Origin: Candidatus Poribacteria bacterium
Lineage (GTDB): Bacteria; Poribacteria; WGA-4E; UBA9662
DNA: 46,679 nucleotides
Direction: 5' to 3'
NCBI GenBank assembly: GCA_002709695.1
Contig: PAQF01000053.1
Location: forward strand, 1 to 46,679
The translations under genes and the position numbers were made by a program. The notes below the pieces were generated by a model. It saw only the letters and a program-made list of their open reading frames with translations. It had not been told where the DNA came from and searched no databases. Each line of letters begins with the position of its first letter. Positions within the stretch are counted from its first letter, which is position 1. This document shows, piece after piece, positions 4,302-41,878 of the stretch.

Positions 4302-5339
4302 CTAGGCATTAGGATGAATAATAACCTTATTGCGCCTAGTTGAAGCCATGACATCTAAAGCTTGATTAATTTCAGATAGGGGAAACCTATGAGAGATCAC
4401 CTGTTTGGGGTCTACAAGATCTCGTTGCATCAACCGGATAGCCTGTTGCATAGCCAGCGGATTGGTCCCAAAGCTGGCGTCCATTCGAGCTTCAAGAAAG
4501 TGTATCAGCCCACCGTCTAAGCTAAATTCCTCTGGTGTAGTAATACCAAATACGTTCCAGCGCGTACCTCGACGGAGCAGACTCACCATCAACTTTACTG
4601 CTTCGATAGGACCAGCAGCTTCAATCACTAAATCAGGCCCATCCGGCATGATGTCATATATAACCCGCTTTGAATCCACTTGTTTAGGATTAACAGTGTG
4701 AGTTGCCCCTAACCGTTTAGCTGTTTCCAACGAGTAATCACTCAAATCTACTGCGACCAAACGACCAGCTCCAGCGGCTTTTGCTACCATTAAACAGTAA
4801 ACCCCAATACTTCCCGTACCAATAACAACAACATCATCTCCCACCCTCATTTCAGATTGGTGTATAATTCCTTTCCATGCGCCACTGACAGGCTCCGTTT
4901 GACAAGCAGCATCAAAATCAATCGACGTTGGTTTGTGGTATACAGTATTTGCACCCGTTAGCATATACTGCGAAAAACTGCCCGGGCGCACATCATCCGG
5001 CCCATCTCCACCCGTAGTATACGACTCCTGACAATAGTGAGTCATTCCCATACGACAATATTGGCAGAGTCCACAGTATCCGCTCGGTTGGATGATCACG
5101 TCATCACCCTCTTTAACATGAGTAACGTGATCCCCTATGGCTGCTACAATCCCAGCAGGTTCATGGCCAGGTATCAGGGGGAAATCCACATTACGACGGA
5201 TCCCCCGTATAGCCTTAAAGTCGGTAGCACAAAACCCACAGGATTGAATCTGTATTAGAACTTCACCTGCCCCTGGGTCTGGAATCGGAATATCTTCCAG
5301 CAAAAGGTTATTGTAGTCACGTAATACTGCTGCTAACAC
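4302..5339 (-). CDS. Zinc-dependent alcohol/polyol dehydrogenase (MDR family)
   Basis: A 345-residue medium-chain dehydrogenase. Catalytic zinc ligands are visible as Cys37 (CGFCATD) and His59-Glu60 (PGHEPAG). The four structural-zinc cysteines are Cys89, Cys92, Cys95 and Cys103. The Rossmann motif VVIGTGSIGVY is at about residues 172-182, with an acidic residue (VAVDLS) consistent with NAD preference. It resembles sorbitol/threonine dehydrogenase-type enzymes that oxidize a secondary alcohol. Substrate is not determinable from sequence. The neighbouring SDR and isomerase suggest a sugar or polyol pathway. Confidence 0.9.
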   Translation of the reverse strand: MLAAVLRDYNNLLLEDIPIPDPGAGEVLIQIQSCGFCATDFKAIRGIRRNVDFPLIPGHEPAGIVAAIGDHVTHVKEGDDVIIQPSGYCGLCQYCRMGMTHYCQESYTTGGDGPDDVRPGSFSQYMLTGANTVYHKPTSIDFDAACQTEPVSGAWKGIIHQSEMRVGDDVVVIGTGSIGVYCLMVAKAAGAGRLVAVDLSDYSLETAKRLGATHTVNPKQVDSKRVIYDIMPDGPDLVIEAAGPIEAVKLMVSLLRRGTRWNVFGITTPEEFSLDGGLIHFLEARMDASFGTNPLAMQQAIRLMQRDLVDPKQVISHRFPLSEINQALDVMASTRRNKVIIHPNA

Positions 5340-5666
5340 GTCTTATTCCAGATCAAATGGTTAACAAACCAAAATATATGTGCCATAAACTATATACGGG
5401 AACGGTAAATTCACCCATCATATACCACCAATATCTTCTGCGTCAAATGATTTCCATCTGCACCCGTTCGATTTCCAAAAGAGCCTTAAAGCAACTTCTC
5501 CCAAATAATGGTAAAAACACAACCTCCCCAAGAATTCACAGTTAAATTTTCGCCACTAAAACCGGACACATACTTAGGAAATAATTAAAGATTGTGTTTT
5601 TTTAAAATCAACTATAATATAATACTATATACGATATTCGTTTAAAACGATAAAGGGAAGATTTAA
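5340..5666. other. Intergenic stretch between divergent genes
   Basis: About 327 bp between divergently transcribed genes. The half next to the plus-strand gene is very AT-rich and holds the candidate promoter listed separately. I find no coding signal or RNA gene. Confidence 0.5.
5592..5623 (+). promoter_or_regulatory. Candidate promoter for the secreted-protein/phosphodiesterase cluster
   Basis: TTGTGT at 5592-5597 is followed by overlapping TATAAT boxes at 5613-5618 and 5618-5623, giving spacers of 15 or 20 bp. Both spacings are off the ideal 17. The location about 45 bp upstream of the first gene of the cluster supports a promoter role, but AT-richness makes chance boxes common. Confidence 0.3.
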
Positions 5667-6314
5667 ATGAGGCTAAGAACATTAATAATTAGCACCACGA
5701 TTTGTTTGTTTCTTTTGATTAGTATCTCGAGTTTTGCTTGGGATCGTGCCATCGAAGCAGAAAAAGCAGGAAGAATAGAAGATCCAATGATTATTGCTGA
5801 TGATGCTAAGGCCTCTGATGGTAAATTCATCTGGATGGAAGGAAAACCTGCCACTGGTGGTGGAGGTAAAGGCTGGGCTGAATGGACCATTCAGATTCCT
5901 AAAGCAGGAACCTATGCTTTATGGGGAAGAGTGCTCGCTTGGGATGGCAATAGCGACTCCTTCTGGGTAACTTGGCAACCAGTTGATCCAAATGAAGATG
6001 CACAAGCCACACAGAATAAACAATTTCGGTGGGGAGTAGAGAGTGGACCTGAATGGCACTGGGACCGTATAAATCATTGGTTAGACGAAGGTACATTCGA
6101 TCGTAAATGGAAATTTAACCAAGCAGGGAAAACAACCTTGCGGATCGCGGTACGGGAAGACGCCACTATGTTGGATGTCATATTCATTACGGACAATTTA
6201 TCCGAAGAAGAAGCCGAAGCCAAGCCACGCACCCCTAACGCAAGCGATGCTGATGTTCCTGTTGAAGTAAAAGGGAAATTAACATCGACTTGGGCGCAGA
6301 TAAAAAACCGATAG
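5667..6314 (+). CDS. Secreted protein, beta-sandwich/carbohydrate-binding-like, tandem paralogue 1
   Basis: A 215-residue protein with a clear signal peptide (MRLRTLIIS, then a hydrophobic run to about residue 23). The mature part has a GGGGKGWAEW turn, a strand pair IPKAGTYALWGRVLAWD and an aromatic-rich core, including SDSFWVTWQP and WHWDRINHW. The pattern 'ligand sheath, P..G.Y.LW.RV, D.N.DSFWV' resembles CBM6/35/36-type galactose-binding folds, so extracellular glycan binding is plausible but inferred. A GGGAAG site precedes the ATG. The next gene is a close paralogue, and a phosphodiesterase and a PhyH-HEAT protein follow on the same strand. Confidence 0.8.
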   Translation: MRLRTLIISTTICLFLLISISSFAWDRAIEAEKAGRIEDPMIIADDAKASDGKFIWMEGKPATGGGGKGWAEWTIQIPKAGTYALWGRVLAWDGNSDSFWVTWQPVDPNEDAQATQNKQFRWGVESGPEWHWDRINHWLDEGTFDRKWKFNQAGKTTLRIAVREDATMLDVIFITDNLSEEEAEAKPRTPNASDADVPVEVKGKLTSTWAQIKNR

Positions 6315-38408: not shown

Positions 38409-40292
38409 TTATTGGACTTTAGCGCCATTAGAAATAGGTTTATCCAAAGTAATAAGCGACAAACTTTTTTTGCTAACTGCAGCCAGTAGCATCCCTTGCG
38501 ATTCCAAACCACGAATTTTCGCAGGTTTCAAATTGGCTACTAAAACCACCTGCTTACCAATTAAATCTGCAGGCTCATAACTCTGGGCAATGCCAGCGAT
38601 AACCTGACGTTGCTCCTGACCTAAATCCACCCTCACTTTCAGTAGTCTATCGGCATCTTTTACGGCTTCTGCTCCAATAATCTGGCAAACACGTAAATCA
38701 GTTTCCTTCACCTTATCAATTGTAATGAGATTACTCTCATCTACTGGCTCTGGGTCTTTTGCTATCTTATTTTTGGGCGAAGCATCTTTCCTCGGAAACA
38801 AAGGACTTGGTTTATGTATCGGGAGACCTGAAGGTAAACCTCCCCATTTATTTATAGAATCGAGATCCTGGGAGGAATCTCCAAGTCCCAGTTGTTGACA
38901 AATTCTAACTGAAATTTCCGGCATAAACGGCAGAAGCAAAACCGATACTATACGTAAGCCTTCCATCGCATTATAGAGAATAGTACCCATTCGTTCGAGA
39001 TCATCCTTGAGGGACCAAACCTCGGTTTGCTGAATATATCGGTTGATACGTCGAATGTATTCAAAGATAGTTTCAAGCACAGTATCAAAAGCGATAGATT
39101 CCATTAAACGATCAACCTGATCAACCAACTGAATGGCCATCTCTTCAATTTCAGCATCAAATTCACCTACCTTCGTTGGTACCGGTAAAGTCTCAAAATT
39201 TTTTCCTAACAAGCCAAGTGTGCGATTCAAGAGATTGCCCAGATCATTTGCCAAATCCGCATTATACCGCGTTTCGAAACGTTCCTGTGTATAATCACCA
39301 TCGCTACCGAAACTGAATTCACGCATGAAGAAATAACGAAACGGATCGAGGCCAAAATCATCAATCAGGCCATCTATATCGATAACATTACCAGTAGTTT
39401 TACTAATTTTTTCTCCATCTTTTGTCATCCAGCCATGAGCAAATATACGCTCAGGAAGAGGGTGCTCAACAGCCATAAGCATAGCTGGCCAGATAACAAC
39501 ATGGAAACGAATAATCTCCTTGGCCATCATATGTACACTTGCTGGCCAAAATTTATGGTATAGATCTCCATGTTGATAGTAATCAAGTGCGGTAATATAA
39601 TTGCACAAAGCTTCGACCCAGACGTAGATGTTCTGACTAGAATCAAATGGCAACGGAATACCCCATTCAACCGATGATCGAGAGATACTGATATCTTTCA
39701 AACCAGCCTTCAACACTCCCATAATTTCATTTCGGCGTGTTTCAGGTTGAATGAACTTGGGATTGGCTTCAATATGTGCAATCAATCGATCTTCATATTT
39801 TGAGAGTGCGAAAAAATAATTGTCTTCCTCCACCAAATCAACCGGCAGTTTATGAATGGGGCAATGATTGTCATCTGCAAGTTCCTTCTCAGTAAAAAAC
39901 CTTTCGCATCTTCGGCAGTAAAAACCTTCATATTTTCCCTTATAGATGTCGCCACTTTGGTATAATCGCGTTAAAAACTTCGACACACCCTTTTTATGAA
40001 GCTCACTCGTCGTCCGAATGAAAAAGTCATGGGAAATATTCAGTTTTTTCCATAAACTTATGAATGTAGGCAAGATCTGATCACAATAATCTTGTGGAGA
40101 AATTCCTTTTTCCTCAGCAACCTTTTGAATATTCTCACCATGTTCATCAACACCTGTCAGGAAAAAAACCTCCTTTCCCTTTAAGCGATTATACCGAGCC
40201 AATACATCACAGGCAATTGTCGTATAAGCGTGACCAATATGAGGTTCGGCATTAGCATAATAAATTGGTGTTGTAATGTAAAATTTTTCCAT
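38409..40292 (-). CDS. metG: Methionyl-tRNA synthetase
   Basis: A 627-residue enzyme starting MEKFYITTPIYYANAEPHIGHAY, the HIGH-box region. The zinc-knuckle segment carries CRRC and CPIH, and the KMSKS loop reads DGEKISKTTGN. The anticodon-binding helical domain is followed by a linker and a C-terminal tRNA-binding (Trbp111/EMAP-like) domain (ETDLRVCQIIGAEAVKDADRLLKVRVDLG). It charges tRNA(Met) with methionine. The ATG at 40290-40292 is chosen because it matches the family N-terminus; a longer in-frame start adds 20 unrelated residues. GAGGAG lies 12 nt upstream. The leader contains a promoter, a Met-rich small ORF and a terminator (see those entries). Confidence 0.96.
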   Translation of the reverse strand: MEKFYITTPIYYANAEPHIGHAYTTIACDVLARYNRLKGKEVFFLTGVDEHGENIQKVAEEKGISPQDYCDQILPTFISLWKKLNISHDFFIRTTSELHKKGVSKFLTRLYQSGDIYKGKYEGFYCRRCERFFTEKELADDNHCPIHKLPVDLVEEDNYFFALSKYEDRLIAHIEANPKFIQPETRRNEIMGVLKAGLKDISISRSSVEWGIPLPFDSSQNIYVWVEALCNYITALDYYQHGDLYHKFWPASVHMMAKEIIRFHVVIWPAMLMAVEHPLPERIFAHGWMTKDGEKISKTTGNVIDIDGLIDDFGLDPFRYFFMREFSFGSDGDYTQERFETRYNADLANDLGNLLNRTLGLLGKNFETLPVPTKVGEFDAEIEEMAIQLVDQVDRLMESIAFDTVLETIFEYIRRINRYIQQTEVWSLKDDLERMGTILYNAMEGLRIVSVLLLPFMPEISVRICQQLGLGDSSQDLDSINKWGGLPSGLPIHKPSPLFPRKDASPKNKIAKDPEPVDESNLITIDKVKETDLRVCQIIGAEAVKDADRLLKVRVDLGQEQRQVIAGIAQSYEPADLIGKQVVLVANLKPAKIRGLESQGMLLAAVSKKSLSLITLDKPISNGAKVQ

Positions 40293-40368
40293 AAACTTGT
40301 ATAACTCCTCACAGAGAAAAGAACAAAGACAGACCAGATATCGAAAGTCCAATTAACGTTTCTTTTAC

Positions 40369-40473
40369 TTATCGATTCCACCTAAATGAGCCAACAAAAA
40401 AGCCCGCCATTGTGGGCCAATGGAGGGCGGCTATCAGCATAAAACCATTTAATATGACCATCATAAAAATCAT
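40369..40473 (-). CDS. Met-rich leader ORF upstream of metG, 34 codons
   Basis: The frame starts MIFMMVILNGFM and ends RWNR with TAA 76 nt before the metG ATG. Five of 34 codons are Met, three of them among the first five. The intrinsic terminator lies entirely inside this frame. No ribosome binding site sits directly before the ATG; the frame stays open further upstream, and a GAAGGAG lies about 60 nt away in a small hairpin. This arrangement fits a leader peptide for attenuation of metG, but a small hydrophobic membrane peptide or chance are alternatives. Confidence 0.35.
   Translation of the reverse strand: MIFMMVILNGFMLIAALHWPTMAGFFVGSFRWNR
40396..40428 (-). terminator. Intrinsic terminator inside the metG leader
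   Basis: On the minus strand GCCC-T-CCATTG pairs with CAATGG-C-GGGC (4 bp, one mismatch, 6 bp) around a 5-nt loop and is followed directly by TTTTTT. It is about 104 nt upstream of the metG start and about 130-155 nt after the predicted transcription start, so it would cut the transcript before metG unless antitermination occurs. Confidence 0.7.
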
Positions 40474-40563
40474 AATAATTGCATTAGCTATTTTACAATT
40501 TAAAGACACTAAACTTGGAGTGGTTAACTCACACTCCTTCTTAACAGCCTGACAACGCGAGCG

Positions 40564-40592
40564 ATTATAACAAACAGTAAAAAGTATGTCAA
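40564..40592 (-). promoter_or_regulatory. Consensus sigma-70 promoter for the metG leader
   Basis: On the minus strand TTGACA (40587-40592) and TATAAT (40564-40569) are both perfect and separated by exactly 17 bp. Transcription would start near 40557 and give a leader of about 265 nt before metG. It also contains the hairpin GGAGTG/CACTCC (40517-40537) over a GAAGGAG sequence. Confidence 0.75.
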
Positions 40593-40879
40593 TACGCGGT
40601 ATTTAGCCAACAAGATAGAATTCAATTCGATCAGTGAACTCCTTTCTTCACTTTAAAACCAACATGTCAAAATAATCAAAGTCAACATGGTAAACTTAAA
40701 ATACAAAGAGATGTAAAAAAACAGTTTCTTGACGATCCTGCATAATACTGCTTAACAGAATTCGGATATTTTGCAGTATATTGTTCCCTCATTAATCGGT
40801 AACTTGACAAAACGATTTTTGTGTCATGAATTCATCAGTTTTACAGTTCTATTTAGTTGTTAATTAAAAGGATCACCAA
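40593..40879. other. Promoter-containing gap between metG leader and the dehydrogenase
   Basis: AT-rich gap between divergent genes. On the plus strand TTGACA occurs at 40804-40809, but no good -10 box stands 17 bp downstream. No gene or structured RNA is recognised here. Confidence 0.35.
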
Positions 40880-41878
40880 ATGAAAATCCCATCTTTGCCT
40901 GAAATTGAAAGGCAATCACTTCAAAAGTGGAACGAGAAGAGAACTGCCGTAGTTTTCACTACCAAGCAGGTATGGAACCTTGTCAAAGATCAACTTGATA
41001 TTTTCCCTAAACAGAAATTTTATGTTACCGAAGCAACTAAACCCGCAATGGACTACTTTGTTAACCAAACTAAAGCCGAAGTAGTGTACGGAATTGGTGG
41101 TGGACTTGCCATTGATACAGCAAAATACGTAGCAGCAAATCTTAACAAACCTCTCTTTGCTATCCCTACGGTTCTTTCAACAGATGCCTTCCTGACAGAC
41201 GCAACTGGAGTTCGAATCAACGGCTGTGTAAGCTATTTAGCTTCGCAATCTCCAGATCTAGTTCTGGTTGACATCGATTTGCTTTGTCATGCCCCAACAG
41301 AAATGAGAACAAATGGTGCTGCAGATGTATTATCAATAGCCACAGGGATGTGGGATTGGCAATATGCACAAAATAAAGGAAAAAATCTTCCTAATCAAAT
41401 GATCGAACCACATGTTGTTGAAATTGGCAATGCAATTTTAGGAACCCTAATTAAGAATGCCAAAGAAATTGGGAACGGAACGGCTAACGGAATGAAAGTT
41501 TTATTCGATCTACTTTGTTTAGAAGTTCAACTCTGTTACCTGTGCGGACACAGTCGACTTGAAGAAGGCAGCGAACATCATTTTGTTTATTCGCTGGAAA
41601 ACTCCCTGACCGAACATATACTTCATGGAGATCTGGTTGGTTTAGGAATTCTACTGATGTCTGTTCTCCAAGGTCAGGAATGGAAACCTTATCGGCAAAC
41701 ATTGAAGCAACTAGGTATCAATTATCAACCAGCAGGTGTGACAGAAGAAATGATAATTGATACATTAATCGGGTTATCTACTTACGTAAAAAAACACCAA
41801 CTGCCACACACCATTGCAACGGATTGCGACATCAATACAGATCTGGCTATAAAAACACTTGAAAAAGTACTTAGTTAA
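40880..41878 (+). CDS. Glycerol-1-phosphate dehydrogenase-like (iron/zinc alcohol dehydrogenase, AraM/EgsA type)
   Basis: A 332-residue member of the dehydroquinate synthase/iron-ADH fold. VVYGIGGGLAIDTAKYVA is the NAD-binding glycine motif, and PTVLSTDAFLTDATG is characteristic of the G1P dehydrogenase branch. Metal ligands are expected at Asp in NGAADVLSIATG, His in EEGSEHHFVYSLE and His in HILHGDLVGLG, all present. G1P dehydrogenase makes sn-glycerol-1-phosphate from dihydroxyacetone phosphate, the archaeal-type lipid backbone; bacterial AraM does this too. AAGGATC precedes the ATG. No geranylgeranyl-glyceryl phosphate synthase is in the window, so the pathway role is open. Confidence 0.82.
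   Translation: MKIPSLPEIERQSLQKWNEKRTAVVFTTKQVWNLVKDQLDIFPKQKFYVTEATKPAMDYFVNQTKAEVVYGIGGGLAIDTAKYVAANLNKPLFAIPTVLSTDAFLTDATGVRINGCVSYLASQSPDLVLVDIDLLCHAPTEMRTNGAADVLSIATGMWDWQYAQNKGKNLPNQMIEPHVVEIGNAILGTLIKNAKEIGNGTANGMKVLFDLLCLEVQLCYLCGHSRLEEGSEHHFVYSLENSLTEHILHGDLVGLGILLMSVLQGQEWKPYRQTLKQLGINYQPAGVTEEMIIDTLIGLSTYVKKHQLPHTIATDCDINTDLAIKTLEKVLS

Follow-up and report, generated by a model that had tools for sequence, protein, structure and literature searches.

The 300 nt preceding metG in a 46,679-nt contig of a Candidatus Poribacteria bacterium (the window, by which we mean this whole stretch; its genome is a 5.2-Mb assembly of 87 contigs) probably constitute a classical leader-peptide transcription attenuator or a recently altered descendant of one. 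This reading draws on a promoter, a Met-codon cluster and a terminator that are kept in a congener (MAG UWMA-0119, Candidatus Poribacteria, the sole congener compared), on a copied terminator arm in that congener, on a Met-rich version in a poribacterial genome of another family of the same order (G005), and on an equivalent arrangement, built around Ile codons, before ileS. For the lineage we favor peptide-coupled attenuation of metG, as a fairly likely explanation to which the window itself lends partial support. An earlier note on the window had proposed such control; the comparisons with the congener, G005 and ileS strengthen the proposal, but the window copy has a frame that extends across the terminator, and its antiterminator should, by prediction, fail to compete.

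All parts of the window copy lie on the minus strand. The methionyl-tRNA synthetase gene metG (38409..40292, 627 codons, ATG at 40292, beginning MEKFYITTPIYY) has orthologues in 80 of 85 poribacterial genomes, with protein identity from 91% in the congener down to 43%, and is preceded by a putative ribosome-binding site, GAGGAG (40305..40310). The consensus promoter (40564..40592) consists of a -35 TTGACA at 40592-40587 and a -10 TATAAT at 40569-40564, with a 17-nt spacer and a TG before the -10; this exact TTGACA-17-TATAAT arrangement was present in 1 of 100 shuffles. Early in the leader RNA is a hairpin (40517..40537) formed by GGAGTG (40537-40532) and CACTCC (40522-40517). A candidate leader peptide of 34 codons (40369..40473; MIFMMVILNGFMLIAALHWPTMAGFFVGSFRWNR) begins MIFMM (MIFMMVILNGFM...) in an ATG frame and opens with the Met-codon cluster ATG ATT TTT ATG ATG GT(C) (40457..40473); when the window leader was dinucleotide-shuffled 2000 times, 14 of the shuffles contained three Met within five codons of an ATG frame. 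The frame is also open back to a GTG at 40509, and no Shine-Dalgarno sequence precedes either this GTG or the ATG at 40473. It runs through an intrinsic terminator, GCCC.CCATTG-loop-CAATGG.GGGC followed by T6 (40396..40428), whose stem occupies 40428-40402 and whose T6 occupies 40401-40396, with a predicted energy of -18.1 kcal/mol including flank. The earlier note had described the perfect promoter, the hairpin, the 34-codon MIFMM frame and the T6 terminator inside it; the coordinates bear out each of these, the promoter being the window's sole exact match. Because the whole leader folds no better than its shuffles (z -1.09), the terminator alone stands out as structure.

We then compared the leader with that of the congener. 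The alignment starts shortly before the -35 and extends as far as the T-tract. Identity is highest in the promoter (97%, 28 of 29 bases), followed by the terminator (88%, 29 of 33 bases), the Met cluster (85%) and the early leader (77%), versus 53% in the upstream and 58% in the downstream flank; the stretch from the metG Shine-Dalgarno sequence to the start codon is identical at 15 of 19 positions. Changes within the Met cluster are synonymous (TTT/TTC and GTC/GTT), and the terminator stem is kept in the congener, with C-G becoming U-G in one pair and a changed loop. The congener counterpart of the early hairpin, TGAGTT/AACTTT, keeps five of the six pairs, one with both sides changed, in an alignment of two sequences only. 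The gene upstream of the leader differs between the two genomes, indicating that the promoter-leader-terminator unit travels with metG. In the congener, an extra divergent gene (4678-5691, L052), which by eye resembles a dehydrogenase gene, separates the metG leader from the counterpart of the neighbour gene at window 40880-41878. The leader is common to these two genomes only, too few for a real covariation test.

As judged from sequence and predicted folding, the congener leader has the layout of a classical attenuator. Its frame, MSLELTTFTLAFLICQRVSAIIMIFMMVELNGG (ending MIFMMVELNGG), reaches a stop codon before the terminator, where the copied arm ends; its final codons, AAT GGC GGG (AATGGCGGG), equal the terminator 3' arm, so that they could pair with the 5' arm as a competing antiterminator. 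The predicted energies are -16.8 kcal/mol for the antiterminator versus -14.9 kcal/mol for the terminator, and the antiterminator is predicted to form by default when no ribosome is present (P=0.85). The congener thus combines a frame that ends before the terminator with an antiterminator able to compete, as a leader-peptide attenuator should.

RNA polymerase starting at the consensus promoter would produce a leader carrying the short Met-rich frame and the terminator. In the congener, which shows the canonical form, stalling of a ribosome for Met-tRNA at the ATG cluster would leave AAUGGCGGG unpaired, and the freed arm would pair with the terminator 5' arm, permitting transcription of metG; a ribosome that reached the stop codon would instead cover AAUGGCGGG, and the terminator would form. 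We infer transcription start, translation of the leader frame and the response to methionine, as we do every step past the sequence and its predicted folding. If this scheme holds, the sensed residue, methionine, is also the one that every start codon specifies, so that a shortage would reduce initiation on the leader frame as well, and a default antiterminator such as that predicted in the congener would suit a sensor of this kind. A methionine sensor poses the question of how an attenuator functions when the residue it senses also starts translation of its leader.

The window copy departs from the canonical form. In the alignment with the congener, 18 nt are missing from it after AATGG (40445..40449), itself a remnant or a short antiterminator arm corresponding to AATGGCGGG, and this gap takes away most of the copied arm together with the stop codon. 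The frame ends at 40369, past the T-tract at 40396, and the congener's upstream ATG start is AGG in the window, beside a 1-nt indel. The antiterminator suggested by the earlier note, in which AATGG (40449-40445) pairs with CCATT (40423-40419), is possible over 5 bp but is predicted not to compete (-5.5 kcal/mol versus -18.1 kcal/mol for the terminator; P(arm 2:arm 3)=0.00). The window therefore retains a promoter and an intrinsic terminator before the gene and a short frame with clustered Met codons, but its frame does not stop before the terminator and its antiterminator is not a competitor. With the copied arm reduced to AAUGG and no stop codon before the terminator, control in the window is probably weaker, lost or different, and canonical function of this copy is doubtful. 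This copy may have weakened or decayed, or it may work in another way; a ribosome translating across the terminator could also oppose termination, which would reverse the sign of control. Either the window or the congener may represent the derived state.

These departures raise the possibility, a substantial one though not the reading we favor, that the window leader is a decayed attenuator, now a partial terminator, largely free of regulation, whose only effect is to lower metG transcription. Such decay overlaps with our preferred explanation, since it accepts an attenuator in the lineage and denies function in the window species. The 18-nt gap, the disparity between the predicted energies and the missing congener start codon all speak for it, whereas the promoter, Met cluster and terminator are still 85-97% conserved, and a strong terminator left unrelieved before an essential gene would be costly. 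It is unlikely that the promoter and terminator instead bound a separate gene, for a small RNA or a small membrane protein, with metG transcribed by leakage or from another promoter. The promoter-to-terminator unit is indeed self-contained at about 160 nt, and in the congener a frame of 72 codons (MDKREIYWPN...VELNGG) reads through the promoter without a stop. However, this 72-codon frame has no homologue outside the genus (best outside match E=0.008, with an internal stop), is disrupted in the window by an indel, and has substitutions that are not biased toward third positions (counted by eye in the alignment), and we rejected a small protein gene running through the promoter on the grounds of its missing homologues and its broken window copy. 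Moreover, neither a scan nor the divergent stretch between the terminator and metG shows a conserved promoter there.

Control of the terminator by a non-ribosomal sensor, whether a tRNA-binding leader, a metabolite riboswitch or a protein, seems more improbable still. T-boxes (RF00230) are the typical means of controlling synthetase genes by premature termination in Firmicutes, and the window genome does contain one such tRNA-sensing leader, an Rfam match of 106.6 bits, above the cut-off, before an ilvB-like acetolactate synthase gene (contig C39:52292-52548, minus strand; L133 1501-1757). Nevertheless, across the whole window no Rfam family reached its gathering score, and within 40200-40900 neither a T-box nor a SAM element appeared even at E≤10, consistent with the earlier note, which had seen no T-box or S-box signature. 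At the metG leaders of the window and the congener no T-box, SAM or other convincing match was obtained at E≤10; weak matches in the two genomes, such as PyrR, were far below cut-off. We therefore rejected the T-box and the SAM riboswitches (S-box and others) as identities of the metG leader, for which their covariance models gave no match. There is also no conserved fold besides the terminator and the short hairpin, and a Met cluster in an open frame would be unexpected under such a sensor.

Returning to peptide-coupled attenuation, we compared 70 poribacterial metG upstream regions. Only those of the window, the congener and G005 contain a terminator with a U tail and a predicted energy below -12 kcal/mol; one other region has a GC-rich hairpin that lacks a proper T-tract. 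Met-cluster frames occur in the same three, where the automatic count had scored the congener as terminator-only because its frame, open upstream to a TTG, exceeded the length limit. None of the other 67 regions holds a comparable leader, and most genomes of family f3 have a similar plain metG promoter 64-150 nt upstream of the ATG with no leader. In G005 the promoter lies 282 nt before metG and the frame, MKRFAILSNMGMSMCSS, is followed directly after its stop codon by a copied arm, GTGATAA, whose source is the terminator arm GGTGATAATAGG; the terminator is CCTATTATCACCGCGGTGATAATAGG-T7. The G005 frame thus ends before the terminator, and its antiterminator is predicted to compete (-19.1 kcal/mol versus -18.5 kcal/mol for the terminator), with a Met cluster that arose in 5 of 2000 shuffles. 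Unlike that of the congener, the G005 antiterminator is predicted not to form by default when no ribosome is present (P=0.02). By its features, the G005 leader is a separate version, unrelated to that of the window and congener, and we tentatively suggest that attenuators with Met codons may have arisen at least twice before metG in Poribacteria.

Synthetase genes under leader-peptide attenuators include pheST in gamma-proteobacteria and trpS and leuS in Streptomyces (PMC1262725) and hisS in bacilli (PMC2965389), and such attenuation has been described in Proteobacteria, Actinobacteria and some Firmicutes (PMC2965389). The poribacterial metG leader resembles these in having a leader frame rich in codons for the enzyme's own amino acid and a mutually exclusive antiterminator and terminator (PMC1262725, PMC2965389), and differs in its host phylum, in the methionine it is proposed to sense and, in the window, in a frame that overlaps the terminator and an antiterminator of only 5 bp. 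The earlier note had seen no description of such a system; for synthetase attenuators in general descriptions exist, whereas for the methionine version none turned up: the literature searched, which covered few subscription papers, yielded no leader-peptide attenuator of metG or ileS and no report from Poribacteria.

Compared with the metG leader, the ileS leaders of the phylum make a stronger case and show better conservation. In the window genome, ileS (contig C63, L161) has a TTGACA-17-TAAGAT promoter and a leader frame, MLTITVIISSVLISIIILIDGGQKA, with 8 Ile in 25 residues, and its arms, GATGGTGGGC / GCCCACCATC / AATGGTGGGC-T7, include last frame codons that copy the terminator 3' arm; with an antiterminator predicted at about -22 kcal/mol and a terminator at -21.2 kcal/mol, it presents as a textbook attenuator. 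A short frame with Ile-Ile-Ile precedes ileS in 47 of 68 upstream regions across the phylum (L162-L230 and L161), compared with 63 of 1360 shuffles (4.6%) and 2 of 50 metG regions. In 60 of the 68, a GGTGGG-type arm is matched by a strong complement downstream. The typical peptide ends in RAISIIIAIRRAVVG before its stop codon, with GTGGTGGGCTAA at the end. An uncultured phylum thus appears to use leader-peptide attenuation widely at ileS and, in two unrelated forms, at metG.

The two leaders share a consensus-like promoter, a residue-specific frame and last codons that copy the terminator 3' arm; they differ in sensing Ile rather than Met and in being phylum-wide at ileS but genus-specific at metG. 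We considered whether the metG leader arose by duplication of the ileS leader and a switch from Ile to Met codons, and found the interior similarity unconvincing: whole-leader similarity (z about 5-6) is owed to the promoter and terminator, and the interior score is reached in 104 and 16 of 500 shuffles. Common descent is not supported by these sequence comparisons. A genome-wide search with one pattern matched ileS alone in both congeners, and no comparable promoter-leader-terminator unit precedes the other PF00133 genes (ValRS- and LeuRS-like) or the SerRS, ThrRS and PheRS genes of the window genome; its ProRS, TrpRS and TyrRS genes closely follow other genes. In the ileS leader of the congener (L162) an insertion, which could be real or an assembly error, puts the ATG and the Ile run in different reading frames. 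The IleRS of families f2 and f4 (L222-L227) is approximately 42% identical to that of the window genome, and most of these genes carry the same type of Ile-run leader, reflecting either one old attenuator or an enzyme replaced under a kept leader. Genome G053 has two ileS copies (L164, L230), each with an Ile-run leader frame.
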